Shown here in pieces: positions 12,692-37,934 of a DNA stretch of 43,309 nt; position 1 is the stretch's first letter, and the number at the start of each line of letters is the position of its first letter. Both the position numbers and the translations under genes were made by a program. The notes below the pieces were generated by a model that did no database searches, had not been told where the DNA came from, and worked only from the letters and a program-made list of their open reading frames with translations. Origin of the DNA: Marinilabiliaceae bacterium (GTDB taxonomy: Bacteria; Bacteroidota; Bacteroidia; Bacteroidales; Marinilabiliaceae); NCBI GenBank assembly GCA_027010905.1, contig JALVBA010000011.1:1-43309 (forward strand), in the 5' to 3' direction.

Positions 12692-12704
12692 CCCGCTATG
12701 CGGG
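12692..12704. repeat. Short GC-rich palindrome CCCGC-TAT-GCGGG
   Basis: Perfect 5-bp arms inside GACACCCCGCTATGCGGGACAGGTGCG in the aspS/tadA spacer. Confidence 0.5.
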
Positions 12705-12975
12705 ACAGGTGCGAATTCAGGATGCGAAAATACAAATTATTATTGATTATTTTTTACAAAAGAATAATTCAGGTAAATTCGCAACATTCATCGGTTAAAA
12801 TCAGCGTCAGGTCATTCATGAAGTACTCTCTGCAAAGGCAGAATGTCATACTCCCTCCCAATCTTCCCCACATGGGGGAGGAGATAGATTTAACAGCTTT
12901 ACGTACGATTTTAAAAGAGATATATGCAACTAATGCTAAATTAATTCGTGTAAATTGGTGTAATTCGTGGACAAC

Positions 12976-13422: not shown

Positions 13423-13502
13423 CACCGGCTCCTCCCTAGTAACACCAGCCCCTCCTAACCTCCTCAAAGGGGAGGAAAAAGAAAGGAAAGTCCCTCCCTA
13501 AC

Positions 13503-13525
13503 CCTCCCCGCCGTGGCGGGAGGGG
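13503..13525. repeat. GC-rich palindromic repeat (CCCTCCCCGCC..GGCGGGAGGGG)
   Basis: CCTCCCCGCCGTGGCGGGAGGGG, in a spacer with several similar CCCTCC/GGAGGG elements. Confidence 0.6.
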
Positions 13526-13552
13526 AAAATAGTTAAAGTAGAGTTAAATACA

Positions 13553-13585
13553 AGTCAAGGCTTCACTTGAAGTGAAGCCTTGACT
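13553..13585. terminator. Perfect 16-bp inverted repeat between convergent tadA and giant gene 1; candidate bidirectional terminator
   Basis: AGTCAAGGCTTCACTT-G-AAGTGAAGCCTTGACT, 1-nt spacer. Confidence 0.55.
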
Positions 13586-13598
13586 CTAATAATTCTCT

Positions 13599-13615
13599 CT
13601 CCCCCTTAGGGGGAG
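13599..13615. repeat. GC-rich palindrome CTCCCCCT-T-AGGGGGAG
   Basis: 8-bp arms just downstream of the giant gene 1 stop. Confidence 0.6.
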
Positions 13616-13639
13616 CCGGAGGGGGCTTCTCTTTCCCCA

Positions 13640-16600
13640 CTAATCCACCCTCGAAACCTTACCGGTTACAACCATATCGTCTGTACTAACAGTAATAATA
13701 TACACACCATAAGCTTCGGGAAGGTCAATAGTTGTTTTAATATCTGTAAGATTAAACTCTTTCAGCATACTACCTGAAGCATTGTAAAGTCTGATTATAC
13801 CTTTACCCTTAGCACTTGCAAGGATTTCTTCATTAACTTTTACAAAACCTTTCTGACCGGTTCCATAAATATGAACACCCTCTCTTGCCAAAGCACCGCC
13901 ATTACCATTTGTCCCAGTTGTAACATGGGTAAAATAGAGTACAAACCTGTCTGCATCCTCTCTTCCGGTTGACATAAATGTATATTCCGGGGCATCACGC
14001 AGATTAACTTCAATACCTTCTTTTTTATCAAAAAGATATATATCATCGATTGCTGAGAACTCGCGAAGATTTGTAGCTCGAAGAGTAATCAGTTTCTTTT
14101 GTGAGAAATTATATCCGAGCTTAATAGTGTCAACCCCGGCTGCATTGTTGGGATATGTGCCTATGACAATTTTACTGCCACCTTTAACAGCATAGATGTT
14201 GGGAACTATTTTAGAACTACCCATACGCTTTTTCGAGTCATATTCTGTCAGCTCATCTACAGCACCTCCATAGCGAAACAGTACCACTAACTCATCGCTG
14301 TTACTCTCATCATTAAGAGAAATTCTAAGCACATCATTAGGTGTTAACATAGCTCCTTTTAACACTCCATTGTCACCGTAGCCTCGCAATGTAGGTCTAA
14401 TGGTTAAGGTTGAATTTGCAGTATGCTGAATCCAGAACGACTGTCCCGGTGCAACATATTGAGTTCCACCGTTGGCTCCCTGTCCATTACTCAGGTTATA
14501 GGTTGCGTAAGCAAGTTCCCCTGAACCATTTGCTGAAGTCCATACTGTTGGATCGGCAGTTCCTATATCAGAGTCAAGATCGTCTAAGTCGATATATGCA
14601 GCATAAGGATTAGCCACCAATTTATAGCCATCAAAAGTGCTATTGTATGTACTGTTTCTTAAATTACCGACATGACTAACTGTAACATCACTACCGGTTT
14701 TTGTTTTAACTGCATATCCCTCCAAAGTCTCTTCAGAGCCGGCTAAACCATCATTTCCTGCAACATTAGTAGTTATACGTGTCCAAACATTTGGCCAACG
14801 ATATAGCCACAGATCATTTGCTGGATCCACTATTGGTGTAGAGTAATCAGAGTAGGTTACACCATCAACAGAGTGACCAACATACATATATCTGTTATTG
14901 GGATATATCCACTCTACGGTTACTGCATCGGTAGCACCTTCATTTATCAATACTGTTGGTGAGACTACTGTATTCTGAATAACCACATTACTGGCGTCAG
15001 CAGTATTCAAATCACCTTTGAGTGTCACTCTTGATCCCGGCTGCAAGGTTACTGTACCTGATTCAACAGTCATTCCTGTTATAAGTATCTCCCCATCAGA
15101 CGCTTTTATTATAGGATTAGAGCCTCCATCATCTTTAATTGTTACTGTTGAGGCCTCTCCTGGAAGTTGACTATCAAACCAGTTACCAGCGTCACCCCAG
15201 TTACTATTCACATCACCTTCCCAAGTATATAGCTTCACATAAGGCCATTGCAACAGACCTGAAGAGGGACTCGGTGTTACCTCGTCATCCTTCTCATAAA
15301 GATAGTTACCAAGATCTCCATTGGCATCTTCAAAATGGAATATTGTGGTTCCAGATGTTCGTGTAACATTGTATTTCGGACCTGAATTAAACACCAAATT
15401 TTTGAGCGTAAAATCATCCACTCCCATCTCATGTAACAGAGTCATGTAACTACCTGAGTTTGGATATCCATTTGAGAATATTCCATCAGAGAGGTTGTTG
15501 GTAGCATCAATATTAGCTCCCGGAGCCATATAGAGTCCATCGGCATCGGTATAGTCCACCTGATAATATTGTGCCTTTATCGAACCTCCTGAGTTCACAT
15601 CAAACGAGTACCTACCGGAAGAAGAGCTGGTAAGTGTTGCCCTGTTGGCATTATCAGTTCCCAGAAGTTCTATGGAGCCGCCATTATTCACAGCAAGTGC
15701 TGCTCCATTGTCCATATCAAGGGTTGCTCCGGCATTTACCTTTAATTCACCTGAGATAGATATTGTATTACCTATTCTAAGAGTATTAGCATTAAGATCT
15801 AACGTGCCGGCTGTTATACCCAAATCGTTTGTCACCCTCATACTACTTGCGAGAGTATAGGTATAACCTGTTGAATTTATAGTCACATCATAAAAAGCAG
15901 ATGTACCACAATTGATATTTCGGTTACTTGTTTCCGAACCTAATATTAGCTCTCCCTGTTCAGCATTGAAAGTTCCGTTGTTAATCCAATCACCCTTAAC
16001 AGTCAAAGCATAATCACCCGAACTTGCACCAAATGTAGCACCCGGATTTATTGTCAGGTCACCTGAAACGGTAGTGGCATATCCCAACTGATACTGAGCC
16101 GTACCGGCAAACACAAGATTATTAAATGCTGTACCCCTGTTGTTTATTACACCTACACCGGCAGTTCCGTCGAATGTAACAACCCCTTTACTTACCACTA
16201 CACCTGAAGTACCCCTATACCAATCACTCTCAACAGTAATATAATCATTCGTTGAGTTGACCTGTAGCTGTCCGTTAATAACAAATGAACCATTTATGTC
16301 GAGGTCAACCGCTGCTGCGTCAGCTGGAGTATTAATCTTCAGCTGACCTCCATTATCTATTGTTAAGCTACCTGAGTGCTGGTCATGAGTTATAAGGTTT
16401 GGATAGTTAACCAGTCCTCCGGGAATAATAACATCAGTAGATGAAATAGGTACGATGGGTGATCCTGAACTGGCTGACCAGTTACTTACATTATTCCAGT
16501 CAGTATCTACCGAACCGTTCCATGTTAGTTTAACAGGCCCCGTCCAATCAATCAAATCATTAGGGTCATTATCGAACGATTCACCGGCAAACACTCCCGA

Positions 16601-19600
16601 TGAGTTATAGAACTCAAGTGTACCTGATGCAGAACTATACTTAGAGATATTAGATGCACTACCTCCCGGATTATTTGGGAACGACACGTTCTCTATACGA
16701 TTTGCACCGGTAAAACTTTGGGTATTCTCAACTCTAAACAGCTGACCTGTAGTTGCTCCATCGGAGAATGTTCCGTTACTAAAATGATAAGTAGCATCAA
16801 TTGTAGAGGAGGGAGTAAGATATATACCACTGCTGGCCATATTCTCAAATATATAGTTATCGGCAGCAATCTCACCTTCAACAGTAAAACTATATCTACC
16901 GCCCGAAGAGTTATTTGAAACTTTACCTCCAACAACCTCTATTCGTCCCCCACTATTAACCTTTAGCGATGTTCCGTTACCAATACCCAGCACACCACTG
17001 TTTCCTACTTTATAAGTTCCGTCAATAGTTACAATATCTGAACCTCCATTACCCAGATTGATTGTTTTACCATTCCCGTCAAATACACCGGCTATCAGAT
17101 TAAAGTCACCCACAAGAGAGATGTTATCTTGTGCTGTATAGGTAGCACCACTATTAATTGTAAGATTTAACAAGCTTGAACCATTCACGCTAATATTGGC
17201 ACTACCCGCTGCTTTACGCAGGTAGTATGTTCCGGTATTGTTAACATATGAACCAGATCCTGAAGTTGTCATATCACCACCTATATAAATAACTCTTCCA
17301 CTGGCACTAAACTGTCCACTTGTAACTGTCAGGTTATTTTTTATAACAAAATCATTTGATGTATTACTGTAGGCATAAACAATATTTGAGGAGCTAACTG
17401 TCAGGTTGTAGAAATCGTTAAGATTCGATGCCGTTGAGTAGATATACTGATTCTCGGTTCCATTAAATATCACATCGCTTTGACGACAAATAAAGTTACC
17501 GGTAGAGGTGTTATACCATCTCCCACTTATAATTATAGTATAGTTACTTGCGCTTACATCGAGTGTTGAGTTATTAAAATATAGATTTCCCTTAACTTCA
17601 ACATTTCCCGTAAGTGTTTTGGTGTTTTCATAATTCAGTACCAGATGCCCATAAGGTACACCTGCTACATTTTGATCTGAACCACCGTAATATCTGGTAT
17701 AACTCAATGCTGAGATATCATACGATGAAAATGCTTTTGGGAAATTATTGACTCCATAAACATAAACATTAATATTATCATCACCAACAGTATAAGTACC
17801 CGTTCCATCACTTGTTATTGTGAAGGTATCAAGATATACACTTGTAACACCTGCATTAACAGTTACATCGCCGGTAACATTCACATCCCCCTTGAGGTAT
17901 AGTGTACGATGAGTGCAATCAACAACTAAATTATTGAAACTTGCAGCATATAGGTTCTGGTTTCCGTTTGTTCTGTTAAATGTAACAGTACCACTGCCGG
18001 CATAAGTTCCATCACCATACCAGTTAATACCATTAAATGTGTGACTCTCGTCACCATCATTAAATGTTCCGGATGAGTTAATCTGCATATCACCTTTAAA
18101 ATCAATCGTACTTCCCGGCAACGCTTTTAGTGTTGAAGAGATGGTAGTTTTTCCATATACAGAAACCGTTCCATCACAGAGTTTATCCCCTGAGCCCTCA
18201 ACCTTTAGGTTATAGAATATACCATTGGTAATGGTCTGGTCACCGTCTCCATTAAGCACTATCGTTCCATTGGATGCTGATGAAGTGTTGTATGAACCAC
18301 TATTTATAGTATAATCACCTTTAAAGTTGAAATTGTAATTATTTACAGATGGTGATACTGTACCACTGTTAATAACAAAGTCACCATCAACATCCATTTC
18401 AGATGAAGATATTGAAAAGGTTGTAAGAGCATTATCAAACACCAAATTATAAAAGTCTGATGATCCCGGAACAATCATAGCAGAGCCTTCGCCTGAATTG
18501 AATGTAACCGTTGCATTTCCGTGAGAGAAGTGCCCCTGTGTATCGACAATCCAATCGCCTCCAACAGTGATATTACTGGATGTGGAATTGACATACAACA
18601 TACCATCTGCAATTGACACATCAGCATGGGCAGTAATGCCACGATCACTCTCAAGCCTCAATAGTCCATCGGTAATTTTCAAACTTTTACACTCTGCATC
18701 GCCATTGAAAATAACGGGGTCATTATCCCTGTCGGGAATAATAGCATCTTTATTGGCTGTTGGTACTCCATTATCCCAGTTACCGGCTTTATGCCAGTCA
18801 ACATCAATATCTCCTATCCAGTATGTTTCAGTTACTGTTGGCCAATGCAGGTATCCAATATCACTTGAAGGTAGTTGGTCATCATCCTCAAATCGGAAAC
18901 TGCCAAGAGCTCCTGTTACATTTTTGAAGACAACTACCGATGAAGTAATCTTACGCTGTACATTGTAATGTTTCCCCTGAGTAGGAACGCCATTATATCC
19001 AAATGAGATATTTGATATTGTATCTCCTGAATAGGAAGCTTCAAGAATCATGTAACGGGCATCCTGAACATTACGGAGATTCAGCCATGTACCGTCAGAC
19101 AGGTTGTTAGTAGCGTCAAGTGTCGAGCCGGGCTTAAGATTAAGTCCTTCGTCGGCAATATACTCAACCAGATAGTAGCGTGCATTAAGTGTAGCTCCTG
19201 ATTCAATATTGATCAATGATTTACTTCTATTGTCAGTCCTCTCACTCGAGAGTGTTGCCACATGAGAATTGTCGGCACCCACCATATTAAACGTACCATT
19301 AACATTTATAGTGTCTTGTGTTGGATAGTTATTCACAATCAGTTTAGCACCACCATCAATAGTAAGTGTACCATCTACAGTGTGAACATTATCTACAGCG
19401 TTGTTACGCCCAATTGTTAAAGTTTTACCATTCAAACTTAGCTCTGCATCTGTACCGATATTCATCACATCGTCAAACCTTGTTGCATCACTTAAAAGTT
19501 TATAAGTAACTGCTGATGTAGGTGCAAAATCAACATCATAGAAGTTATACCCGCCACTGGTAATATTTACTGGAGACAAAGCTCCGTTAAATGTAACTTT

Positions 19601-25600: not shown

Positions 25601-27655
25601 AGTTATTGTAAGATCTCCATCAACAGTGATTCCCTGCTTAATAACATTAAGCCCACCACCGGAGAATGTAACATCGTTAAATGTGGTATTTGTTCCGGTA
25701 GCATTTATCGAGCCTGTACCACCGTCAAAAACCAACGATCCGGTAGCATTGTACGTGCCACCATTATTATTCCAGTCGTACTCAACAGTATGATTGAAAC
25801 CACCATCATTAAAGGTTGCTCCTGATTCAAGATAGATATTCTTATTCACATCAACAGCAATGTTTGATTTTACATTACAGCCGGCGGCAAAAGTAAGGTT
25901 GTTAAATGTAGAGGTTACAGAACCTCCAATCTCCATATTTCCGTATACTTTAACGTCAGCAACATTTGTAAATGACTGTTGCAGATTAACTGTTCCGTTA
26001 TTAACCAAATTACCATATAGTCGAATAATATGAGCCGGTGCACCTTCTGAACCGGAAGTAAGGCTACCACCCGGTTTAACTTCGAGCAACTCCTGTACCG
26101 ACAAGCTCTTTTGGGTAGCATCTTCACCAATAATAAAGCTACCGGAAGTACCCCCACCAACAATAAGTTTATTCACATAAACACTATCAATATTATTGTC
26201 AAATGTTACTGTATGCCCGTCCTGAACAATCAGTATGGCAGAGCCATCCTGCAGGCTAGAGGGGTTACTACCTGTTCCGTCGCTATTGCTTGTCCAACTT
26301 GCTGTTAATCCTGCCGACACATTTCCTGTTGAGTAAAAGGTTGAGGCCGAGCTAAGCCACTCTATTAAAGTCCCCGGCGTACCCGTGTCGTTATCATTTA
26401 TTTCACCGGCAAAAGTACCTGACGCATCAACAAATGTCACTGTTCCGGTTCCGGCAGTACGTGATACATTGTAAGTTGGGCCACTATTAAAAACTGTTGA
26501 CTGAATTGATGATAATCCACCTATACTATTGAGGTTAGTTAGCTGTAGATACTCAGTTGCGGTACCATGATCAAACGTGGTGTATCCAAAATTATTTGTA
26601 TTATCAACTGTCCCATCAGTAATTGTTATCCCTCCCGAATAGTCAAAAAGAGCGTAAAGTGCATGAAAAACTGTCCCTGATGCAGTTTGCGAAATAGTAT
26701 AACCGCCCGCTCCTGCATCTGTTTTAGTTACTGTGGCAACATTGCCTGATGTGCCTACAACCTTAAATATTCCACTATTGGATAGCGTTGCTGCATCATC
26801 AAGTTTTAATGTTGCATTATCGTCTAATTCTAAAGTGGCTCCACTGTTAACTGTTACGTTTCCTGCCGTTGTTAGGATATTGCTGTTTAAAGTTAATGTT
26901 GATGTTCCATCTATTGTTAATAGTCCTGAAACTGTAGCATCAGATTGCAGCGACTTAATATCTGCACCTGATGTTGTAAGATTGTAATATGTTGTTGCCG
27001 GAACAGATTGTGCTCCACTTCCATTAAGATTTACTGTTGAGTTATCACATACAAAAGAGCCTCCTGAGAAATCGCCTCCGATATTCAGAGTTCCTGATGC
27101 CGAGTTAACAAAAGACAGAGTGTTTCTATTAGCATCAGCCATAGAGATATTACCACTTACTGACAGAGTACCACCCTCAATTTCAATTCCGGTATCTTCA
27201 CCGTCATCTCCGGTATCAACCATTGTAACCGATGCACATGTTAATATCCCTGAGTTTACATACACAAACTGATCCCCAGCATTAGCCGACGGATTACCAA
27301 AAGTTACAGCTCCTGTTATAGTCAGACTGTTGTTGCCAAAAGTCACATCAGTTGCTGATGTTGTTCCATCGGCAAAAGTCAAGCTGCCAACTGCATTAGC
27401 AGGAGTCAGGTCAAGAGTTATCTGAGCACCACTATTAATTGTAACCTCTCCCGTTCCGGCCGATTGACCGGGATATTCTGCTGCTGCTGCCCAAGCACCA
27501 CTGTTATATACCTCCCAGTTAGCAACTGTTGACCAGTCTATTGTTCCGGTGGTCGATGTTCTGTAATCACCATCAGACTGACTGAAAACAATTGAGGAGA
27601 TAAAAAATAAAATAAGAAGAGACAATGATTTTTTATAAGTATAAAAACGTGTCAT
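13640..27655 (-). CDS. Giant (4671 aa) secreted beta-strand-repeat protein with C-terminal T9SS-type sorting domain; putative surface/adhesin-like protein
   Basis: N-terminal signal MTRFYTYKKSLSLLILFFISSIVFS. More than 20 degenerate repeats of the type TVTFNGTxDQTI...FYNLxxSSSGTKTL...GDLTINSG. C-terminus KGIIRLYNASGSMLKEFNLTDIKTTIDLPEAYGVYIITVSTDDMVVTGKVSRVD. Confidence 0.9.
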   Translation of the reverse strand: MTRFYTYKKSLSLLILFFISSIVFSQSDGDYRTSTTGTIDWSTVANWEVYNSGAWAAAAEYPGQSAGTGEVTINSGAQITLDLTPANAVGSLTFADGTTSATDVTFGNNSLTITGAVTFGNPSANAGDQFVYVNSGILTCASVTMVDTGDDGEDTGIEIEGGTLSVSGNISMADANRNTLSFVNSASGTLNIGGDFSGGSFVCDNSTVNLNGSGAQSVPATTYYNLTTSGADIKSLQSDATVSGLLTIDGTSTLTLNSNILTTAGNVTVNSGATLELDDNATLKLDDAATLSNSGIFKVVGTSGNVATVTKTDAGAGGYTISQTASGTVFHALYALFDYSGGITITDGTVDNTNNFGYTTFDHGTATEYLQLTNLNSIGGLSSIQSTVFNSGPTYNVSRTAGTGTVTFVDASGTFAGEINDNDTGTPGTLIEWLSSASTFYSTGNVSAGLTASWTSNSDGTGSNPSSLQDGSAILIVQDGHTVTFDNNIDSVYVNKLIVGGGTSGSFIIGEDATQKSLSVQELLEVKPGGSLTSGSEGAPAHIIRLYGNLVNNGTVNLQQSFTNVADVKVYGNMEIGGSVTSTFNNLTFAAGCNVKSNIAVDVNKNIYLESGATFNDGGFNHTVEYDWNNNGGTYNATGSLVFDGGTGSINATGTNTTFNDVTFSGGGLNVIKQGITVDGDLTITNNTQVSAGNVIVTINSNFSVESGSEYNQVQNSTNFNGTSAQTLSLDGSTSFNGVGFSNGGVNAKTIEGNIVAKGRVTINTGATVDGNDDYTFHGGLRINGTCNFTSTVTMKGGYIDASDAGVTNISIGTAKLIVDGNVYLRHTAGGSVVSVDMQNDVLIQNGYIVINDDARLTGQAGNTLTVMASKNLYIRGSDNFPSGFGTIDLDPASFVRYDVDIPQTIRGGGSVVYGHLYLNHNTKTVDEALTIKGNMYLYGALTLDLGTYTHVFSGYAIYNGTNNSSINGSNATFIIGDTDANQYIRENGTGNYTFGNLIFRQTGATAIRTKYFYPGCNITISNDLTIENIGGTSAIQMIVDLNDIDIAGPANNFSLGANCKLYTDNADFGANVISSFSGTKTLDVASTVYYTLDGAQNIAGGITYGSITFNNGDKTATGALDINADIFRYGGTPVFHDGGFTHTIAGDWRLNSTNYYTSSSATGTVVFDGVNQEIDGYNFNNITIASSGTVNVARSLTIFGDLTVNDGSSLDVATLSITIGGDVTVVGTGVYTQTTGTTTMNGSADQTLSLNSSCLLGNFTINKPTPTGKVTVATEMHVTGNTTITSTAGVLDISNRNIYLGGRLYVRENAGVPNFITTGSTVYFNGSTGQYIYNYHEDDLTFNNVDFSGSGDKTFTYSNPAPAVASTNLVVNGNLTINNCVVDGHAMEMYVRGNWVNNGTFNHYRTVRFDGANQSISSSSFYHVKFVGSDTKTLTGGINVAYDLYIDSVATLDANNYDITLGRSWYNDTTTAGYTPGTGKVIFNGASSTNIYTGTTSGSQAGKNFYQVEINKTGTTYLHGDLVVANDFILSSGTFYTYEHGLWVGGDFDVAGTFNANSSANEITLNASGGTKVFNPNGAALRKVVIDAPGTTYNLGSDFSVQSADMSIANGSLIMNGNRLKVLDSGRKIDISGGTLKVDTGAVVEFTNTQSLNLSSGNLYIVGADGNLAQIENTSTTASRLFSINATGGTVFANYYKIQQGNLTISGSATIDATNNLSNGIYTNGAGAGAYLTLTGLDFSDFTVDNVVFNAGSTYNVSRTSGSGVITFNDATGGLAGESYEEDDGVPGTLISWTYPAGYYWDGGAGTSNWNDANNWESNTIPSLSDIVYLNHKHVSAAYTVDVSTSDGACERLTMDSGGGNTITLNIGSGRKLDVAQDVTIGSSTTLAQADNTAMLYVGNSWTNLGTYTHNNSTITFNGASGNYIIASGGTGAGKSFYNFVVDAQESSQYGLDATIKVENNLTITTGIFDLASPNNDVTINGDWYIDQANGGSFEASTADVVFSGTDQTVTNGIFYNLIIASSGTTTLGSNIAVENVVTINSGSTFDGQDNNIYVRRHWQNDGGTFTQSSLGTVVFDGISTQYVDQGTSSTTFSNVTFSNRGTKYLNRDVTVNGDVLINASSGTVDVRTHQLTGNGVSNTLTCNKYLQIEGADNFPQGFETIDFATYSYVFYYADITQNIYPTTYGNLRLRRLTNDAATPVDKIATGNLIIKGSLQFDYEPRPAVLDMATNDVNITLTGSITMTPGSSITWGTGNSTLTHVGANWYIDEDITGFNNLILAGTGAKYLQGNTTQSALAITGDLEIKSGIDLRMYATTSAPNNYRRISGTASKTISMETGSRIFNSTPASVAVAIPEGFGTYDFNENSTYYMYSGSDQTIFTGSNIVYGNLIFYYEKSVTSDGVADLNIDGNWDVNVSTYYDGGKDVKIAGANIYLTNYVPSSTARKIILDGPRDQRILDNRNNSVEVATLQISGTNIKTIGDGNDVVIINGDMIIDNDVTATTNRSVTFNGANWTNSGIYKQTGNTLNFNGVSDQTIDAGASNAENHFYNIEFSNASTKTFVNNGADINGDLTINAGTVELGSLSYNLYDELYNTAGGTLNSSSANITFDGTYQDIMTPAFKVNNLTCSGQYRKRMFSDWTINGDLIIESGVQLNTSDGASVPNYYDIFIKGDWTNNGTFIDYTSKVTFNGALSPVNITSGGYNFYDVDFAPTSAVTYKLLSDATRFDDVMNIGTDAELSLNGKTLTIGRNNAVDNVHTVDGTLTIDGGAKLIVNNYPTQDTINVNGTFNMVGADNSHVATLSSERTDNRSKSLINIESGATLNARYYLVEYIADEGLNLKPGSTLDATNNLSDGTWLNLRNVQDARYMILEASYSGDTISNISFGYNGVPTQGKHYNVQRKITSSVVVFKNVTGALGSFRFEDDDQLPSSDIGYLHWPTVTETYWIGDIDVDWHKAGNWDNGVPTANKDAIIPDRDNDPVIFNGDAECKSLKITDGLLRLESDRGITAHADVSIADGMLYVNSTSSNITVGGDWIVDTQGHFSHGNATVTFNSGEGSAMIVPGSSDFYNLVFDNALTTFSISSSEMDVDGDFVINSGTVSPSVNNYNFNFKGDYTINSGSYNTSSASNGTIVLNGDGDQTITNGIFYNLKVEGSGDKLCDGTVSVYGKTTISSTLKALPGSTIDFKGDMQINSSGTFNDGDESHTFNGINWYGDGTYAGSGTVTFNRTNGNQNLYAASFNNLVVDCTHRTLYLKGDVNVTGDVTVNAGVTSVYLDTFTITSDGTGTYTVGDDNINVYVYGVNNFPKAFSSYDISALSYTRYYGGSDQNVAGVPYGHLVLNYENTKTLTGNVEVKGNLYFNNSTLDVSASNYTIIISGRWYNTSTGNFICRQSDVIFNGTENQYIYSTASNLNDFYNLTVSSSNIVYAYSNTSNDFVIKNNLTVTSGQFSASGRVIYIGGDMTTSGSGSYVNNTGTYYLRKAAGSANISVNGSSLLNLTINSGATYTAQDNISLVGDFNLIAGVFDGNGKTINLGNGGSDIVTIDGTYKVGNSGVLGIGNGTSLKVNSGGRIEVVGGKVSNNSSGGRYSFTVEGEIAADNYIFENMASSGIYLTPSSTIDATYHFSNGTFSDGATTGQLFRVENTQSFTGANRIENVSFPNNPGGSASNISKYSSASGTLEFYNSSGVFAGESFDNDPNDLIDWTGPVKLTWNGSVDTDWNNVSNWSASSGSPIVPISSTDVIIPGGLVNYPNLITHDQHSGSLTIDNGGQLKINTPADAAAVDLDINGSFVINGQLQVNSTNDYITVESDWYRGTSGVVVSKGVVTFDGTAGVGVINNRGTAFNNLVFAGTAQYQLGYATTVSGDLTINPGATFGASSGDYALTVKGDWINNGTFNAEQGELILGSETSNRNINCGTSAFYDVTINSTGYTYTLASSMRVTNDLGITAGTLDLNANTLRIGNTISISGELKVNAGATLDMDNGAALAVNNGGSIELLGTDNANRATLTSSSSGRYSFDVNSGGSIKAQYYQVDYTDADGLYMAPGANIDATNNLSDGIFSNGYPNSGSYMTLLHEMGVDDFTLKNLVFNSGPKYNVTRTSGTTIFHFEDANGDLGNYLYEKDDEVTPSPSSGLLQWPYVKLYTWEGDVNSNWGDAGNWFDSQLPGEASTVTIKDDGGSNPIIKASDGEILITGMTVESGTVTLQPGSRVTLKGDLNTADASNVVIQNTVVSPTVLINEGATDAVTVEWIYPNNRYMYVGHSVDGVTYSDYSTPIVDPANDLWLYRWPNVWTRITTNVAGNDGLAGSEETLEGYAVKTKTGSDVTVSHVGNLRNSTYNSTFDGYKLVANPYAAYIDLDDLDSDIGTADPTVWTSANGSGELAYATYNLSNGQGANGGTQYVAPGQSFWIQHTANSTLTIRPTLRGYGDNGVLKGAMLTPNDVLRISLNDESNSDELVVLFRYGGAVDELTEYDSKKRMGSSKIVPNIYAVKGGSKIVIGTYPNNAAGVDTIKLGYNFSQKKLITLRATNLREFSAIDDIYLFDKKEGIEVNLRDAPEYTFMSTGREDADRFVLYFTHVTTGTNGNGGALAREGVHIYGTGQKGFVKVNEEILASAKGKGIIRLYNASGSMLKEFNLTDIKTTIDLPEAYGVYIITVSTDDMVVTGKVSRVD
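15115..15618 (-). repeat. Protein-level super-repeat copy 5 in giant gene 1
   Basis: RYSFDVNSGGSIKAQYYQVDY...DATNNLSDGIFSNG...YNVTRTSGTTIFHFEDANG...YTWEGDVNSNWGDAGNW. Confidence 0.75.
16420..16905 (-). repeat. Protein-level super-repeat copy 4 in giant gene 1
   Basis: RYSFTVEGEIAADNYIFENM...DATYHFSNGTFSDG...GTLEFYNSSGVFAGESFDND...LTWNGSVDTDWNNVSNW. Confidence 0.75.
18715..19235 (-). repeat. Protein-level super-repeat copy 3 in giant gene 1
   Basis: SKSLINIESGATLNARYYLVEY...DATNNLSDGTW...YNVQRKITSSVVVFKNVTGALGSFRFEDDD...YWIGDIDVDWHKAGNW. Confidence 0.75.
22120..22620 (-). repeat. Protein-level super-repeat copy 2 in giant gene 1
   Basis: SRLFSINATGGTVFANYYKIQQ...DATNNLSNGIYTNG...YNVSRTSGSGVITFNDATGGLAGESYEEDDGVPGTLISW...YYWDGGAGTSNWNDANNW. 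Confidence 0.75.
26220..26708 (-). repeat. Protein-level super-repeat copy 1 in giant gene 1 (most diverged)
   Basis: GGYTISQTASGTVFHALYALFDY...VDNTNNFGYTTF...YNVSRTAGTGTVTFVDASGTFAGEINDNDTGTPGTLIEW...LTASWTSNSDG. Confidence 0.65.
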
Positions 27656-27765
27656 AAACTAAACTATTATGGTTTCGATTAAAGTAATTTAAAATTCTTA
27701 TACGGTAAGATAAAGAAAATGTTAGCCAAATGCATGATAAGTTTGATGAAAAACCTAATTAAACT

Positions 27766-30700
27766 CTATTTTACCCTTGTAACCTTACCTGTTACAACCA
27801 TATCGTCTGTACTAACAGTGATAACATACACACCATAAGCTTCGGGAAGATCAATAGTTGTTTTAATATCTGTTAGGTTAAACTCTTTCAGCATTCTACC
27901 TGAAGCATTGAAAAGTCTGATTATACCCTTACCCTTAGAGTTTGCCAGAATATCTTCTGTAACTTTTACAAAACCTTTCTGTCCGGTTCCGTAAATGTTG
28001 ATTCCATCTCCAATAGCCGAGCCATTGTCGATATCATCAATAGCTGTAGCAACATGTGTAAAGTATATCTCAAACCTGTCTGCATCCTCTCCGGCAGTAG
28101 ATGTGAAAGTATATTCCGGAGTATCACGTAGGTTAACTTCAACATCAGTCAATTTGTCAAAAAGGTATACATTATCCATAGCCCCAAACTGATTAATATT
28201 TGTTGCTCTCAAAGATATCTCTTTAACCTGAGAGAATTTATACCCCAATTTAACAGTATCAATCATTCCGGCTTCAGGATAGGCTCCAATAACAACCTTT
28301 TCAGCCCCCTTCAAGGCATATATATTTGGAATATACTCGGCGCTTCCCATCCGTTTTTTAGAGTCATATTCGATAACCTCATTAACAGTGCCCTCCGGTC
28401 TAAACAGCAGAAGGATCTCATCACTTAAACCATCACTATTCATTGTAAGTCTTAATTCATTATCCTGAGATAATGGAACACCTTTCAGTGCTGTCCTATC
28501 GTTAAATGTTCGAAGAGACGGAGATATAGTTAATGTTGAATTGGCAGTATGCTCAATCCAGAACGACTGACCCGGAGCTATATAACGTGTACCGCCATTT
28601 ACCCCTGCATTGGAAGAGATATTATAAGTAGCATAAGCAAGCTCTCCCGACACATTGGTTGATGTCCACACTGAAGGATCTGCTGTTCCTATGTTAGATA
28701 CAAGATCCTCCATATCGATATATGCCTGATATGGATTAGCAATCAACTTATAACCATCATATGTGCTACTGTATGTACCATAATGTAATGCACCCGAGTA
28801 GCTAATGACTTGGGTAGAAGTTCCCTCTTTTGATTTTACGGCATACCCCTCAAGTTTGTCCATTTCCGTACCCGACAAGCCATTACTTCCGCTTACATCA
28901 GTTGTTATGCGCGTCCAGCTATTAGGCCAACGATATAACCACAAATCTGTTCCGGGAGTTGTAAATGTAGAAGAATAATCACTAAACTTAACACCATCAA
29001 CCGAGTGACCAACATACATATACCTGTTATCAGGGTATGTCCACTCAACAGTAACATCACCGGTTACCGATCCAAGATTAATTAATGAAGTAGGAGATGC
29101 AACGCTGTTTTCAATTGTAAGGCCATCATTTGTTACTAAATCACCATTTACCGTCATACGTGCTCCAGACTCTAAAGTAAGTGTAGCACCTGATTCAATA
29201 GTAAGGTCATTAACTTGGGCAATAACACTATTGCTTATTACTGGATTATTTGCAACAACAGCAATTGTTATATTTGAACTGGCATCGGGCAAAACGCCCC
29301 CACCCCAGTTACTGGCAGTAAACCAATCAGATGTAGTTCCCAACCAGCTATATGCAGGAATAGTTATTGTGCCAAAAGTAATATAGTGGCTGTTATCACT
29401 GCCATTGAATCCAAATGTAAGATTTGATAGCAGATTAGTTGTTCCACTTGATGATGTTCCACTAACAGTTCCTGTAGAGACTTCACTCCATGCATCCGTA
29501 GCAAGGTCTTTCCATCTGGCAACAGTAAAGTCACTATTAGGATTAACACCACTATTGGAATCCCAGCGCATTGTAAGGTTGGCTGTGTTAGTAGTTGCCG
29601 GTGCCTCTACTCTCCAATACTCACCATGACTTACATAAGCTAGATTTCCGCTTCCATCAATTGTTGCAGGATCCATACTGTCGTCACCGGGACTATGGTT
29701 GTAGTATTCAGCCTCCCATATACCACCCGATGAGCCGTCAACATCTGCCCTAATCTCTCCATATCTCAAAGCATCACCAATAGGGAATACAAAATAGTCG
29801 CTATTGTTTATTGCTTTTCGTAAAGGACCTTCAACGTAAGAGGTGTTTTTTCCTCCTGTAACACAAGTGTTACTCGTATTTGTAATTGTAATAGTATTTG
29901 TTGATGACGAGAATATTACTCCGGTACCAAATGTCATGTTATTGTCAATCTCAATATCAGTATTCAAAGTAATACCACTAGCATTATTAATTTCAAAATT
30001 ATAAAATGAATTTGTACCGGTAAAGCTTCCCGGTCCATTAATACTTTGGCGCGAACTACCATTCATATTTACTATTGCATTTAAACCTGTTTTAGAGGTA
30101 TAAGAACCACTTGTATAGTTAATGTCTTTCTTGATGTCAAGTTTCTGTACCTGCTCATTAATCAGGTCAGGGCCGTTAATTGTAAGGTCACCTAACAGCT
30201 GAACCTCTATATTAGGTAGTCTTCGGTCGCCGGTTCCGCTAACAATAATATTGTTTACTTCAGGCATCTCACTTAAGATGTCATAATTCGTGGTTCCTCC
30301 ATACTCAACGGTACCTCCTGTAGCCGCAAAGAAATCGGTATAATCACCAGCAGGGATATCCCCTCTCTCCATGTAAAGCGTACCATTTCCTGACACATTC
30401 CCAAGACGATGTCCATAAGTAGAATTAACATTTAGCTTTCCTCCATTATCAATTTCTGATGCATACGACATAATATAGTTAGAAGGAGTTGTTACAGCAT
30501 GTTTAATAAGCACTCTTGCTCCCCGGGGGCCTCCTGCAGGGGATTGAGGACTCCAAACTGTTTGATCCGTCCAGTCTCCGTCTTTTGTTGATGTATAAAG
30601 AGCTACTTGATCAGGAATAGCAACATCAACACCTGCGGTATAGTCACCATCAATACCGACATCATCGGTATTGGTAAATGTAAATGTCAGTTTTGAAGTG

Positions 30701-33700
30701 CCCTCCTCAAAATCTGAAGTGAGGTATTTATCCCAATTACCGGATGAACGACTTAACAATCGTGCAGTAATATAATCAGCTGCTGTGTTTAAGCCTGTAA
30801 GTTGAACATCGCCCGAATAGGCCTGCATTACTGCTTCACCTGTAAATCCGGAAGCATTACTTGCATCAAGTATCCAATAGTACTTAAGTACATTATCAGG
30901 ATCGCCGTTTGTAGTTGTAATTGACGGGTGAATTTCGTTTGCAGCCTTAACTCTTACATAGGTATTATCAGTAGCACTATTTGAAATATTCAATGTTACT
31001 GGCGTATATTTACCTCCTGACCCCATAGGATAAACAAATGTTGTTGCCGAACTAATTACTGGGAAGTACTTCTTAATACCGGCATCGGTAAAGGAGATAT
31101 TGGTTTGAACCATATTAGTTTCTGAGAATGGAGAGGTCTCAATAATATCGGCATCTTTTGTTAATGTCATTAGATTCTGTCCGATATCAAATATCCCTTT
31201 ACTTAACTTCAGCTCATCAGTAATTGTAATAACATTACCAGTAGGAACAGATATACCACTGATATTATCAGTTTTAAATTTGGCAAGAACAGGATTACCA
31301 TAAAGGTTTTGTCGAGATGTTCCTGATGCAATAATGCCATCGTTTAAAGCACCACTTGTAGTTGTAATATCAATATACATATCCCCCTGAGCAAATAGAT
31401 CATTACCCCCATCATCAAATGTGCCGAAGCCTAGGTGCAGCTCTCTGGTTACTGTAATATCATCAGCAAGAGTCAATTTGTTTGATTGATCCTTATACAG
31501 GTTATAAAACTCAGTAGCACCTGTAATTGTCTGATCTAAGGTGCCTGAAAAGTATGTGTTATTGCCTGAAGCTGTGAATGTACCTGAATTAATAAAATCA
31601 CCCTTCATATTTAACACTAAACCATTGGCATCAAATGTTGTTCCGGTATCAATGTTCAAATCTTCATTTATTGTACACGGCACAACCGAAAGAGTTAAAT
31701 TTGTACCTGAATGGTTTATTGTGATATTCTCCAATGTCTCGCCGGCATACAGAGTAAAGTCTCCTGAAGTTGTACTCATATTACCAAATGTTATAGTTGT
31801 TCCCGTACCAAGACTCACTGTTTCAGGATCAAAGTACATCGATGCAGAGGTAGGATTACTTCTCAAATCATTTATCAATGTAAAAGATCCTCCTGAATGA
31901 GTAAAAGAACTTCCGGCATTCAGAATCTCAAAGATACCCCGGCTAGCAGTACCGGCAGCATCAGCTCCTACCTCAACAGAACCACCACTCTGTATGTATG
32001 TCAGCATCCCCTCAGTAGACGTTGTTCCTCTTCTTATCTGTGACCCAACCTTAAGAGTTCCTCCTGTAACTTCAATGGTAGCACTTCCTGATGCAAAATA
32101 GCGAATGTAGTTATCTCCTCCGGACATATCAACAGTTCCCCCACTAACTTTCAACTTGCCATCAAGCAAAATGCCACTACCTCCTGATGCATTAACAGTT
32201 CCCTGTTTAACTTCAAGGCTGGCAGTTGATGGAATCTCAAAATCATCATCACCTGTAGTCAGATCAATATTTATAGCGGCATCATCCAATACTAAAATTC
32301 CACTTTGTAGTTCGATAGCTTTAACAACTCCTACTCCGGAGGTGACACCGTTTAATGAAAAGCTATCGCTAAATGTGAAGGTGGTATCCTGATTAGAGCC
32401 TTTGTTCATGACAACTCTATACAGATCAGGCACGGAGGTTGAAGTGCGATAATACTCACCACTTTCATCCCCTGCTAACTCTAATATAACATTAGTTTGG
32501 CCTTGAACTGAAAATAGGTCTAAAGTGTATGAATTATTGCTTCCTTGATTTATATCTCCCTTAACTATTAGTTTATGTTCGATGCTATTTCCCGAATTAT
32601 CAACGATAATACGTCTTGGAGTCGAAGTTCTTAGATATGAGTAATCTACATCTCCTTCAACAGTTACGGTAACCGGAGAACCTGATTCCGGAAAATGCAT
32701 TGTTCCCCCGCTATAAGCACCTGTATACAAATTACGCTTAATTAGCATATCTTGCAGGGGAGTAAAATTAGTACTACTCTGCAGTATCATGTCATTATTA
32801 ATAGTAATATCTTGGTTAATCTTCTGAGTGCTTCCCTCCATCATTAGCGAAGGACATGGTTGAATAATATCTGTATGAGTTACATTCCCCCCCCAATACA
32901 TTAAGTACGAATATTCATTATTGGCAAATTCACCCCAGTCGGCATTTACTGTGGGGCCTCCTCCATTATTGAGTGAAACCATTCCAACGCCCGAAACTTT
33001 TCCTATATTATATGTTCTTCCCTTCCAAAACTGTAATCTTGGAACACTTTCAGTAGTAGCATCCCCGTCAACAGCCGGATCAAACGTGAAATTCACTTCA
33101 GCTACATCTGCAATATTATAATCTTTTATATTTACTCTACAGCTTGTACGTATAAACACAATACTGCCATCTGTAGGTAAAGCATGGGTTGTACTTCCGG
33201 GTGTGTCTACATCCCAGTTACCAGTAACATTCCAATCACGGTTCCCAGATGTGTTATGTGTATAATATTTTTTTACCGTACCCGAAAACCTATTTGTAGC
33301 CCCCGCTGTATAATTAGCTTTTTCAAGAATGAAGCCACTACCGGTATTTCCACTTGTTCCTCCTGTATCATTAAATTTTATTAAATTTTTATTCTTTACA
33401 ATATTTGACTTTTGTTCATAAGAACGTATATAGCCATCTCCATCAAGTACTTTTCCAGGATAATAATTATTCTCATTATCACCTGCTTCAATGTCACTCC
33501 CGGAATATTTAAATACATACTTAACGCCCGGAAGATTTGCAAACCCTTCGTACCCTACACGCCAATAATAACTCAACAAGTCATCACCCGATAAATCAGT
33601 TGTTTTTAGCTCTCCGTCAACCGGACGAATGGTTACATAGCCTGAATCAACAAAATTGGATACGGTAAGCTCAGCATAAGTATATCTTGTAGTTGTTGTT

Positions 33701-36700
33701 TCAGTTCCAAGGGGGAATGTATAAGTCCCGTTTCCTGTAATTAAAATAGACAGTCCTCCATCTGATGCATTAGCATCGGAGAAAATCATCCTGTCTGTCG
33801 CACAAAATGAAGATGCCACGTTTGTAATAGTAGATTTTTTATGTAAATAATCAACTTTTGCATTATATGTCCTTAAATTTAAAGAGCCGTTATAATACCC
33901 AATACGTTTAATATGGACATCATTTGATAAGTATACATACTTTCCATCTTGTGGATTAAGTTTCATATTACCGATTTCTGCTCCGTCTTCAGAATCTATA
34001 TCCGTACCATCTTTTAGCATTATATAGGCAGTTAATGGTGTTGTTCCTGCTTCATACACACCAAAAACACCATTTTTGCTAATGATAACAGGCCCATAAG
34101 TTCTTATGGATTGATGTCTCTGGTTTAATGTTCCACTGTTAATGTCTGTAGTATTTTTAATTAATAACAACTTGTTATTATACTCCTTGGTCAACGAAGT
34201 CAATGTTGGATCTTTATTTGGATCTCCCCGTAATACAATTTCGGAACCTATAGATTTATTAACAGTTAGATTGTTTACATGTAATTCATAACCATCATCA
34301 ACATCATGACCTATATACAGAGTATCACTTCCGGTTCCGTTAAAAGTTAAAGTATTTGGCTTGCCTGAATCATATAGTAAGCCGTAATTATTAGTTCCTT
34401 GCTTCTGGCTGTTTTCTGCAATTGAAAAATCTCCTCCAATTGCTATGTTTTCTCCGTTGTGATTAAGGAAGCAGTTGTCCTCAATAGTTAAGTCATTTAA
34501 CACCACCAGTGGTTGAGCTGTCTGGTTTTCATTGGTTGAACCCACATTTGATGCATCATCTAATATATGATCAGTAGTGCTGTTCAGAGTATTACGTAAA
34601 ATAAGGTTATAAAAAGGAGCCTTTGAATTAATTATAAAAGGATTTGTTGTGCTTTGGATTTCAGCAATAATAGTACCTCCGGTGACATTGACATTCTCGG
34701 GGTCAGAAGCAATAAAAATACCTCCCTGATTATTTCCTGACCCGGTAGAGTTGTAGACGTGGAGAATTCCCCCAGTCATGCTAAACGTATTGCCCGGATA
34801 TGTTAAACAGAAGTGATAATAATCTGCCGTTCCCGTGCTAACAACATTTACCTCACCATCTGATTGGATATAACCTCCAACAGAGACTCCGTCAACTGAA
34901 GTCCTAATCACTCTTGTATTAACGATACCCCCTGAAACTTTAATCAGTCCATTATTCCTTGTTGTAATTCCACTGTTAATCTTTGATTCCAGCAACCCAT
35001 CAGACACCTCGACTGTTCCGTAAGGAACAATTGCATTTCCACTGTTCTTCTGCACAGTACCACCATCAACCCACAACTTAGCACCTGCTGAAATATTGTA
35101 ATTACTGGCAGTATAACTTAATACGGGTACATTAATGTTACTACCTATTCGAACTGTTCCCATTATGAGACCCAACGCATTAGCGTTATCAGTTAGCTGT
35201 GTTACACCTCCATGAGATTGGTTTGCATAACCAAACAGATTAAAATATGAAGAGTTGGAGGCATCAATATTTAAAATATAGGTGGCATCCGAGCCCTTAT
35301 CAATCTCAATACGATAAAAGTTTGTTGTTCCCTCACATGATATATTTTGGTCTGTTGTTGAACTCAGGAAGTTAGCATCTACAATACCATCTGTTGCTTC
35401 TGACGAATAGGCTGCAGAAGATCGATTTGTAAACTTAACCTCTCCCTTATTAGTAAAATCGCCATAAAAATTAAATTGATGGCGGGCATTTGCACTACCG
35501 GTATGTATCAATCCGGTTGTTTCAACATAAACATCACCCTTAACAGTAAGGTCTAAATTTGTTGTGGCAGTATTGTCATTAATCTGAAAAGTCCCTTTAT
35601 TAATTGTAAAATAGCCATTAATAACGTAATCCTTTAGCAGAGTAACCGTCTGGCCTGCATTCATATCTATCTCCATATTGAAGAAAGTGTAGGAGGTATT
35701 CAATGAGTAGCTACTACTTCCGTAGTAGACAACAGTACCCTCATCCTCACCCTCATCAACAAAAGCACTATAATCGACATAGGAGGGGAAATTATCAGCT
35801 GCCATCAGCATTCGTCCTGTTCCTGATATAACGTCAAAAGTGTGACCTGTAGTAGTTCCCAAATCCAATCGTCCATCAACTTTAAGTGACGCGCAATGAA
35901 GGTTGTTAAGATTCATAGTAACCGTTTTTCCGCTCTTAATAATAACAGATTCCGAAACATCCTGAGGATATTCATGAGATGGGTTATTGGGCAGCGCACC
36001 AGAGGGGTCTAATGTCCAGGTATTCCAATCATTCCAGTCACCACTAATTAACGTATACCATGTGCGACCTGCCTCTCCTTCTACTGGACTGTTTGTTTGA
36101 TCAGTTGTTCCGAGTGTATAATAACCATTGGACAGGTCTGTATCTGTTATGTCGAAAGATACTTGATCGGCCTCACCTATTGCAGCAGAAACACCTGAAA
36201 CTATTGAATATGTTCCTGAAGTACCACTCCTGTACAGTAAAACATAGTTAAATATATTTTGCGGATATTTTCCACCGGAGATACCTTCGGGCAAGTCAAA
36301 TATAAGGGTGGCATTTTGAGTGCCTGTTTTCTCAACATACCAGTCACGAGCCCATCGTGCCTCAGTCCCGGAAGGGAGATCGGCTGTTGATCTCGTATTT
36401 GTTGTATTATTATGAGCGAACATTATATAATCACCGGGATTTAATGATGCAACATCTGCATTTACATAAAACCCCACACTTGCCGACTCCAACTGACTAC
36501 CATCTGATTCCTGGCCTACACCGGTTAAATTATCGTTATAAGAAGCATCTCCCGAAGCAAAAACATCATTTGATATTGCTATTCCGTATTTATTCTGCAA
36601 ATAGTTTTCGACAATAGTTCGTTGCGCATCATTAAGGTATGTTGCAAACATTATTACCTCAGCAATATCACCATCAAAAGCCTGGCCATTACTGCCATAG

Positions 36701-37380
36701 TAATCTATCCCATCCTGCTCATGTCCTATAACAAGACATCCATTTCCCGTAATTGATATTCCGGTTCTAAATCCTGTTCTACTATATACATCTGTACCAT
36801 TTTGTATTAAATGTAGCTCCCCATTACTATTTCTCCATTTATGAGTAACAATCTGATAAGATGAACTTTTCAAATCATATGAAGATGATTGATTCGAACC
36901 ACGAATATAAGTTGCTAGATTAGAGCTATTATATAACAAATAATCATTATCCGAGGCAGAAGAAGCATAGGATATAACTCCCTCATTAGCCTCCTCAGTA
37001 TGGTAAATAATAATGGCTGTAACTTCACTACTAATAAAGCTATTAACAGGATTATAAATTAAAGATGTTCCATGGACTCCAACCGAATGGCTAAACGTAA
37101 CAACAGGTAGAGAATTTACCTGATTTAAAGTAAAGACAGGATCCCCAATGTTTGTATTATCAGAAGATCTTAAATCATTCCCATTACCCGAACTGTCCGG
37201 CCAAGCAGATACTGAAGTTCCTCCACTCAAACTCAAATCATCAGCCCTAAGCCAAAGAACATTCTCCGGTTGTCCGTTGCTACCATCCTTATTCCCAATA
37301 CCTCCGGGACCGGTTTGCGCATTTACCAACCCAAAACCTGCAAAAAACAGAATCAAGAACAGCGCATATATATTTTTCAT
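27766..37380 (-). CDS. Giant (about 3204 aa) secreted protein: LamG-like N-terminal domain, beta-strand repeats, C-terminal T9SS-type sorting domain
   Basis: Start set at the internal ATG (37380), giving signal MKNIYALFLILFFAGFGLVNA. ENVLWLRADDLSLSGGTSVSAWPDSSGNGNDL lectin-like start; repeats; C-terminus GIIRLFNASGRMLKEFNLTDIKTTIDLPEAYGVYVITVSTDDMVVTGKVTRVK. Confidence 0.9.
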   Translation of the reverse strand: MKNIYALFLILFFAGFGLVNAQTGPGGIGNKDGSNGQPENVLWLRADDLSLSGGTSVSAWPDSSGNGNDLRSSDNTNIGDPVFTLNQVNSLPVVTFSHSVGVHGTSLIYNPVNSFISSEVTAIIIYHTEEANEGVISYASSASDNDYLLYNSSNLATYIRGSNQSSSYDLKSSSYQIVTHKWRNSNGELHLIQNGTDVYSRTGFRTGISITGNGCLVIGHEQDGIDYYGSNGQAFDGDIAEVIMFATYLNDAQRTIVENYLQNKYGIAISNDVFASGDASYNDNLTGVGQESDGSQLESASVGFYVNADVASLNPGDYIMFAHNNTTNTRSTADLPSGTEARWARDWYVEKTGTQNATLIFDLPEGISGGKYPQNIFNYVLLYRSGTSGTYSIVSGVSAAIGEADQVSFDITDTDLSNGYYTLGTTDQTNSPVEGEAGRTWYTLISGDWNDWNTWTLDPSGALPNNPSHEYPQDVSESVIIKSGKTVTMNLNNLHCASLKVDGRLDLGTTTGHTFDVISGTGRMLMAADNFPSYVDYSAFVDEGEDEGTVVYYGSSSYSLNTSYTFFNMEIDMNAGQTVTLLKDYVINGYFTINKGTFQINDNTATTNLDLTVKGDVYVETTGLIHTGSANARHQFNFYGDFTNKGEVKFTNRSSAAYSSEATDGIVDANFLSSTTDQNISCEGTTNFYRIEIDKGSDATYILNIDASNSSYFNLFGYANQSHGGVTQLTDNANALGLIMGTVRIGSNINVPVLSYTASNYNISAGAKLWVDGGTVQKNSGNAIVPYGTVEVSDGLLESKINSGITTRNNGLIKVSGGIVNTRVIRTSVDGVSVGGYIQSDGEVNVVSTGTADYYHFCLTYPGNTFSMTGGILHVYNSTGSGNNQGGIFIASDPENVNVTGGTIIAEIQSTTNPFIINSKAPFYNLILRNTLNSTTDHILDDASNVGSTNENQTAQPLVVLNDLTIEDNCFLNHNGENIAIGGDFSIAENSQKQGTNNYGLLYDSGKPNTLTFNGTGSDTLYIGHDVDDGYELHVNNLTVNKSIGSEIVLRGDPNKDPTLTSLTKEYNNKLLLIKNTTDINSGTLNQRHQSIRTYGPVIISKNGVFGVYEAGTTPLTAYIMLKDGTDIDSEDGAEIGNMKLNPQDGKYVYLSNDVHIKRIGYYNGSLNLRTYNAKVDYLHKKSTITNVASSFCATDRMIFSDANASDGGLSILITGNGTYTFPLGTETTTTRYTYAELTVSNFVDSGYVTIRPVDGELKTTDLSGDDLLSYYWRVGYEGFANLPGVKYVFKYSGSDIEAGDNENNYYPGKVLDGDGYIRSYEQKSNIVKNKNLIKFNDTGGTSGNTGSGFILEKANYTAGATNRFSGTVKKYYTHNTSGNRDWNVTGNWDVDTPGSTTHALPTDGSIVFIRTSCRVNIKDYNIADVAEVNFTFDPAVDGDATTESVPRLQFWKGRTYNIGKVSGVGMVSLNNGGGPTVNADWGEFANNEYSYLMYWGGNVTHTDIIQPCPSLMMEGSTQKINQDITINNDMILQSSTNFTPLQDMLIKRNLYTGAYSGGTMHFPESGSPVTVTVEGDVDYSYLRTSTPRRIIVDNSGNSIEHKLIVKGDINQGSNNSYTLDLFSVQGQTNVILELAGDESGEYYRTSTSVPDLYRVVMNKGSNQDTTFTFSDSFSLNGVTSGVGVVKAIELQSGILVLDDAAINIDLTTGDDDFEIPSTASLEVKQGTVNASGGSGILLDGKLKVSGGTVDMSGGDNYIRYFASGSATIEVTGGTLKVGSQIRRGTTSTEGMLTYIQSGGSVEVGADAAGTASRGIFEILNAGSSFTHSGGSFTLINDLRSNPTSASMYFDPETVSLGTGTTITFGNMSTTSGDFTLYAGETLENITINHSGTNLTLSVVPCTINEDLNIDTGTTFDANGLVLNMKGDFINSGTFTASGNNTYFSGTLDQTITGATEFYNLYKDQSNKLTLADDITVTRELHLGFGTFDDGGNDLFAQGDMYIDITTTSGALNDGIIASGTSRQNLYGNPVLAKFKTDNISGISVPTGNVITITDELKLSKGIFDIGQNLMTLTKDADIIETSPFSETNMVQTNISFTDAGIKKYFPVISSATTFVYPMGSGGKYTPVTLNISNSATDNTYVRVKAANEIHPSITTTNGDPDNVLKYYWILDASNASGFTGEAVMQAYSGDVQLTGLNTAADYITARLLSRSSGNWDKYLTSDFEEGTSKLTFTFTNTDDVGIDGDYTAGVDVAIPDQVALYTSTKDGDWTDQTVWSPQSPAGGPRGARVLIKHAVTTPSNYIMSYASEIDNGGKLNVNSTYGHRLGNVSGNGTLYMERGDIPAGDYTDFFAATGGTVEYGGTTNYDILSEMPEVNNIIVSGTGDRRLPNIEVQLLGDLTINGPDLINEQVQKLDIKKDINYTSGSYTSKTGLNAIVNMNGSSRQSINGPGSFTGTNSFYNFEINNASGITLNTDIEIDNNMTFGTGVIFSSSTNTITITNTSNTCVTGGKNTSYVEGPLRKAINNSDYFVFPIGDALRYGEIRADVDGSSGGIWEAEYYNHSPGDDSMDPATIDGSGNLAYVSHGEYWRVEAPATTNTANLTMRWDSNSGVNPNSDFTVARWKDLATDAWSEVSTGTVSGTSSSGTTNLLSNLTFGFNGSDNSHYITFGTITIPAYSWLGTTSDWFTASNWGGGVLPDASSNITIAVVANNPVISNSVIAQVNDLTIESGATLTLESGARMTVNGDLVTNDGLTIENSVASPTSLINLGSVTGDVTVEWTYPDNRYMYVGHSVDGVKFSDYSSTFTTPGTDLWLYRWPNSWTRITTDVSGSNGLSGTEMDKLEGYAVKSKEGTSTQVISYSGALHYGTYSSTYDGYKLIANPYQAYIDMEDLVSNIGTADPSVWTSTNVSGELAYATYNISSNAGVNGGTRYIAPGQSFWIEHTANSTLTISPSLRTFNDRTALKGVPLSQDNELRLTMNSDGLSDEILLLFRPEGTVNEVIEYDSKKRMGSAEYIPNIYALKGAEKVVIGAYPEAGMIDTVKLGYKFSQVKEISLRATNINQFGAMDNVYLFDKLTDVEVNLRDTPEYTFTSTAGEDADRFEIYFTHVATAIDDIDNGSAIGDGINIYGTGQKGFVKVTEDILANSKGKGIIRLFNASGRMLKEFNLTDIKTTIDLPEAYGVYVITVSTDDMVVTGKVTRVK

Positions 37381-37934
37381 AATCATAAATTCTATAGAGC
37401 TATAAATAACAACTTTCATATTTATACGTGAACAATGCAAAAAGTTACACCTACTTTGACCAATGAATCAACACTTTAGACTAAACTAGGATAGTTTAAC
37501 ATTAACATAACTCCAAATATGCACATTCAATAGCAAAACAACCAAAAAAAACAACAATTAACTATTTATAACACAACTATATTTGATGATTTGTTCAAAA
37601 TATTGGATAAAAAAAGAAAACGGCTCTATCTCCAACCCTTTCCCTAGAGAGGACAGTGGTATTTACCTTTTTTCGGGAGCACTACGTTCTTGATACTTTA
37701 TGTTCTCAATGCCCATTATCTGCCACATGTTAAGACCAAGGCAACCGGTCTCATTGTTCATTGTCAATATCACATTCTCTAAAATTCAGAATACCTTATT
37801 ATTGTATTCCGGGTTCATGTAAATCTCCTTTAATGCCAAACACAAGCCCGGCAGTGCTCCGCTCCTTATTTGATGTGGAGATTTATGAATCTTCAAGGTT
37901 TGTAATATTTATTTTAACAACCAACTTTCCAACC

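Follow-up and report, generated by a model that had tools for sequence, protein, structure and literature searches.

Giant proteins of a Marinilabiliaceae bacterium with type IX secretion tails that appear to be exchanged within the genome and bodies that evolve separately

Bacteroidota commonly export giant proteins through the type IX secretion system (T9SS), and most of these proteins are unnamed. Among those described, SprB of Flavobacterium johnsoniae is a very large T9SS-exported surface adhesin of gliding (PMC10202324); it has a type-B C-terminal domain (CTD) and depends on SprF, which is encoded nearby. RemA (8gl6), a T9SS type-A adhesin of the same bacterium with a homologue, RemZ (8gl8), carries a lectin domain, and a fusion of the RemA CTD to SprB was anchored or released and not moved along the helical track (PMC12618676). 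The motifs B, D and E of type-A CTDs, the sorting domains of cargo such as gingipains and mirolase, have been described as well (PMC11969387). Here we describe two giant genes, A and B, which lie in tandem on the minus strand of a 43,309-nucleotide stretch of DNA (the window; GenBank assembly GCA_027010905.1, contig JALVBA010000011.1, positions 1 to 43,309) from a Marinilabiliaceae bacterium. A and B probably encode giant adhesins of the T9SS type-A kind whose C-terminal module (CTM) has been exchanged within the genome, with the bodies evolving separately. We found no papers that deal with giant T9SS proteins of Marinilabiliaceae or with the T9SS of Carboxylicivirga; in the literature searched, the family is an undescribed, large and widespread branch of a known kind, the giant T9SS adhesins, and its unexpected trait is, on the best reading, the exchange of the CTM among its members.

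A and B share a C-terminal region of about 530 residues that is 62% identical over 537 columns. An earlier note on this DNA had described related tails, two uninterrupted open reading frames (ORFs) 110 bp apart, a signal peptide on each and a LamG domain in the upstream protein, all of which were recovered (Table 1). Within the shared region a head module precedes the CTM, whose length is about 430 residues. A profile of the CTM matched RemA over profile positions 82-425 (E 1.1e-34) and RemZ over profile positions 52-425 (E 3.9e-33), reaching well beyond the CTDs of these proteins. The homology of A and B to RemA and RemZ takes in some 350-400 residues at the C-terminus, among them the type-A CTD. 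The match of the profile to gingipain CTDs was weak, and a fold search with a model of the CTM found the CTD of T. forsythia mirolase with a probability of 0.99 over 79 columns (E 0.06). TIGR04183, the NCBIfam model of the type-A T9SS sorting domain (cut-off 23 bits), scored 22.6 bits on B as a whole protein and 23.8 bits on its module alone, and matched 37 of the 42 members of the module alignment at E<=0.01. When the last ~70 residues of both proteins were compared by eye with the published type-A motifs, B, D (GxY) and E (a basic residue) were recognised, namely GIIRLFNASGRMLKE, YGVYVITV and GKVTRVK in B and GIIRLYNASGSMLKE, YGVYIITV and GKVSRVD in A. A and B resemble gingipains and mirolase in the G-I/V start, motif B (LFNASGRMLKE), motif D (GVYVI) and the basic motif E, whereas their CTD forms part of a longer conserved module and is carried by giant, apparently solenoid-like bodies. 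No type-B tail (TIGR04131 or PF13585) was found on A or B in the Pfam and NCBIfam scans and no PorP/SprF-like gene was recognised among the ORFs of the window, as expected for type-A cargo; in this A and B differ from SprB, which they resemble as giant surface adhesins whose T9SS export is, in their case, predicted. The genome encodes SprA (2674 bits), GldM (378), PorV (389) and PorU (1245), all over their cut-offs. Together with the TIGR04183 matches among the tail relatives, this makes the T9SS a well-supported secretion route for A and B, as the earlier note had proposed; the export of A and B themselves, their orientation, anchoring and adhesion are what we infer from their sequences.

Tails and bodies tell different histories. 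Compared with its orthologues in other genera, the body of A is 50-62% identical whereas the CTM is only 26-37% identical, the drop being sharp near residue 4200, and the same contrast is seen with the same-genus genome G002 (body 65%, CTM 46%). The CTMs of window A and window B are 68% identical to each other, and in a tree of 81 CTMs they are sisters with a Shimodaira-Hasegawa-like approximate likelihood ratio support (SH-aLRT) of 100. In this tree the nine A-type rows require nine changes, and approximately unbiased (AU) tests, in which the groups were set by body type prior to the tree, rejected a single clade for the A-type CTMs (p 1e-5) as well as for the B-type CTMs (p 7e-4). The nearest relative of a CTM was found in the same genome for 46 of the 74 CTMs, the maximum upon shuffling being 11. 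Outside the tails A and B have little in common, with one additional 100-residue match at 36% identity. Over about 215 bp at their 3' ends the two genes hardly differ; the last full 40-codon block is 94% identical in DNA and 85% identical at third positions, compared with 30-65% elsewhere. This tract is best read as a recent gene conversion over the sorting domain, and the pattern as a whole is best read as an exchange of tails, not bodies, among family members within a genome, each body representing an orthologous line of its own.

Exploring the distribution of the family, we found CTM matches in 42 of 61 relatives. Arrays comprise one to seven giants, which tend to lie in tandem. Four body types were distinguished: A, B (with LamG), N (a body like that of B that lacks LamG) and short forms. 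The first 827 residues of B had matches in 44 of the 71 family genomes, with 40-64% identity in many, and A had matches in 10 of the 71 (nine besides its own genome; 51-65% identity over up to 1541 aa). Across the order, A was detected in 18 of 294 genomes (35-59% identity outside its own genome, mostly collinear over the full query) and B-like bodies in 51. Given that the bodies are conserved collinearly across genera and families, A and B cannot be chance or mis-called ORFs. In the window the array adjoins tadA-aspS, as it does in G002, G013, G014, G028, G036, G064, G067, G069, G071 and G077 (at a distance of a few kb in G013 and G071). An aspS scan placed it there in Carboxylicivirga marina, Carboxylicivirga sp. 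A043 and M1479 and Labilibacter sediminis, three of which appear to be identical with G014, G064 and G036. In many arrays the giants are accompanied by short proteins of ~760-845 aa, or forms of ~1150 aa, with the same CTM (loci L034 in G033, L041 in G009, L040 in G022 and L045 in G034); the window holds none. In its own genome the CTM is found only on A and B, though 26 PF18962 matches are present. Outside the window, contig C288 of this genome carries two further ORFs that lack the CTM, a giant one of 3048 aa, which ends in a PF18962 tail, and one of 1337 aa.

These distributions bear on the proposal of the earlier note that the pair forms one system. In its strict form, A and B would be expressed from one operon and co-assemble into a dedicated two-component fibre or surface layer. 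Such an operon is plausible, since the 110-bp gap between B and A has no stable hairpin and a strong one follows A. Moreover, A and B are also next to each other in G063 and G069, and 7 of the 10 genomes with A have it in one array with a gene of type B or N, while contig ends interrupt the remaining three. However, in G063 and G069 the order is A then B, the reverse of that in the window, with a gap of 222-824 bp; B-like genes mostly occur without A in the same genome (44 vs 10 of 71); and in G282, a genome in a single contig, the A-like and the B-like genes are at separate, distant places. The proposal is partly right. Given the reversed order, the frequency of B without A, the separation in G282 and the arrays of one to seven giants, A and B are members of an array family, and a dedicated two-component fibre is unlikely.

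The bodies differ from each other in their build. A is modular, with 67 internal tile matches of which the best are 27-38% identical, whereas B is hardly repetitive, with four weak internal tile matches. A strict short repeat period was seen in neither, excluding a strict tandem-repeat protein; the designation of both as repeat proteins in the earlier note is thus apt for A and fits B loosely. The LamG-like domain of B matched serum amyloid P in the PDB (1gyk, E 0.0016) and is probably glycan-binding; it is of the pentraxin type, and no relation to the lectin domain of RemA emerged from the phmmer comparison with the PDB set. An AlphaFold2 model of residues 455-1010 of B, the kind of structural tile that the earlier note had suggested, was nearly all strand, with a predicted local distance difference test (pLDDT) of 75.0 and a predicted template modelling score (pTM) of 0.75, and its fold matches in the PDB were mostly right-handed beta-helices (lyases, tailspikes and autotransporter passengers), none of them significant. 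The model suggests that the bodies are likely irregular beta-solenoids and rod-like. As long, probably beta-solenoid rods on the surface they would functionally resemble Ag43, IcsA and filamentous haemagglutinin; these use another export route, and no sequence relation of A or B to autotransporter or two-partner beta-helix adhesins was found. Matches to Amnionless (PF14828) and G8 (PF10162) fell below their cut-offs and were not used.

Beta-helical bodies could also belong to secreted polysaccharide-degrading enzymes in which LamG serves as a carbohydrate-binding module. The LamG-like domain of B and the weak fold matches to PL6 alginate lyases (E 0.05-0.3) point in this direction, yet none of these matches reaches significance, they comprise autotransporter passengers and phage tailspikes just as much, and no enzyme family was found in A or B in the Pfam and NCBIfam scans, leaving this account very improbable. 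It is unlikely that A and B are strictly gliding-motility adhesins which, like RemA, are moved by the GldLM/GldJ machinery. The homology of the CTM to RemA and RemZ and the presence in the genome of GldJ, over its cut-off, speak for it. Against it, the bodies have no sequence match to RemA: phmmer comparison of full-length A and B with RemA in the PDB set gave none. In a general comparison, A and B differ from RemA in bodies that are two to three times longer and in their tandem arrays. Since the RemA CTD did not cause SprB to be moved along the track, a gliding role of A and B is not assumed.

We therefore favour giant T9SS type-A adhesins with exchanged tails. A and B would pass the Sec system by their signal peptides, the CTD (the last 60-80 residues of the CTM) would be recognised by SprA-PorV, and PorU would process the sorting domain, leaving A and B anchored or released. 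The long beta-solenoid stalk would then stand as a rod on the cell surface with the C-terminus proximal and, in B, the LamG-like domain as a distal binding head, and the proteins would most likely be very long adhesins that attach the cell to surfaces, polysaccharide or other cells and may take part in gliding. Among the tandem giants the CTM would undergo concerted evolution by conversion as the bodies diverge as orthologues.

Several observations weigh against this explanation. The tail of A scores 19 bits with TIGR04183, below the cut-off, and PF18962, which alone misses such tails, finds neither tail. The structural model of the CTM is weak (pLDDT 62), and the body fold of B is unconfirmed, its best PDB fold match having an E of 0.05 and a template modelling score of 0.21. 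Within-genome grouping is not universal: G063, G070 and G071 have CTMs that were not homogenised, and only 12 of the 26 multi-member genomes are monophyletic for the CTM. Some pairs of CTMs in one genome may also stem from duplication of the whole gene. The adhesive role is putative, being suggested by the LamG-like domain and the likeness to RemA.

With tails and bodies discordant, the module for export and anchoring has a history separate from that of the functional body, and tail phylogenies are unfit for classifying such cargo. The module also links one large order-wide family to the structurally studied adhesin tails of RemA and RemZ and raises a testable question, namely whether tail identity is important for sharing the translocon, the anchor or a fibre. 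Quite unlikely, in our estimate, is that the CTM is a genome-specific matching piece, of which the members of an array need the same variant for joint export, anchoring or bundling; the CTM would then diverge fast between lineages, be kept alike within a cell by gene conversion, and could provide giant surface fibres with a code for self-recognition or co-assembly.

Table 1. Features of the A and B genes and their surroundings (positions in the window)
Feature	Position	Strand	Description
Gene A	13640..27655	-	4671 aa from ATG; giant modular beta-rich protein with signal peptide and type-A T9SS tail
Gene B	27766..37380	-	3204 aa from ATG at 37380; giant, with signal peptide, LamG-like domain, beta-rich body and type-A T9SS tail
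Signal peptide of A	27578..27655	-	Residues 1-26, MTRFYTYKKSLSLLILFFISSIVFSQ; read from the sequence by eye
Signal peptide of B	37315..37380	-	MKNIYALFLILFFAGFGLVNAQ; read by eye; similar N-termini in B orthologues
Modular body of A	15239..27577	-	'WxGxxxxxWxxxxNW' module heads at residues 1802, 2946 and 3712; another at 4145 in the C-terminal region
LamG/pentraxin-like (concanavalin-type) domain of B	36616..36987	-	Residues 152-275; PF00354 41.6 bits, cut-off 25
Likely beta-solenoid-like body of B	29371..36078	-	Residues 455-2690; residues 455-1010 modelled
Shared C-terminal region of A	13643..15238	-	Residues 4140-4671; CTM residues 4242-4671
Shared C-terminal region of B	27769..29361	-	Residues 2694-3224; head module and RemA/RemZ-like module (CTM, residues 2792-3224)
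Type-A-like T9SS sorting domain of A	13655..13819	-	Residues 4613-4667; 88% identical to B over the last 75 aa
Type-A T9SS sorting domain of B	27781..27948	-	Residues 3165-3220; TIGR04183
Near-identical 3' tract of A	13653..13868	-	Partner of the B tract; limits approximate
Near-identical 3' tract of B	27779..27994	-	Partner of 13653-13868; limits approximate
B-A intergenic gap	27656..27765		110 bp; no stable hairpin (z +1.4)
Hairpin 3' of A	13552..13586	-	16-bp stem, -31 kcal/mol, z -7.1; terminator-like; between A and convergent tadA

In the order of transcription B lies upstream and A downstream. The frame of B is open to the first TTG at 37440 (27766..37440, 3224 aa), and the ATG at 37380, which begins MKNIYALFLILFFAGFGLVNAQ, is the likelier start; n, h and c regions are clear by eye in both signal peptides. 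A promoter scan of the window returned 50 sites against 39 expected, little above expectation. The flanks consist of housekeeping genes, named by reading of their sequences: aspS and tadA downstream, and mnmA, prephenate dehydrogenase, DAHP synthase/chorismate mutase, an aminotransferase and prephenate dehydratase upstream. On the strength of these flanks and the absence of any PHROG match a phage origin was rejected. A 96-aa ORF at 12698-12988 (+) overlaps the start of tadA and is probably no gene, and short palindromic C-rich/G-rich intergenic stretches (CCCCTCC...GGAGGGG) at 13470-13660 and 12850-12885 resemble dispersed intergenic repeats. Positions 68-1393 (+) of the window encode a fusion of a class III nucleotidyl cyclase (PF00211, 118 bits) with an HD domain (PF01966, 34 bits), a single protein that may both make and degrade a cyclic nucleotide; in G033 and G020, homologues with 52-57% identity are found close to arrays of giants.
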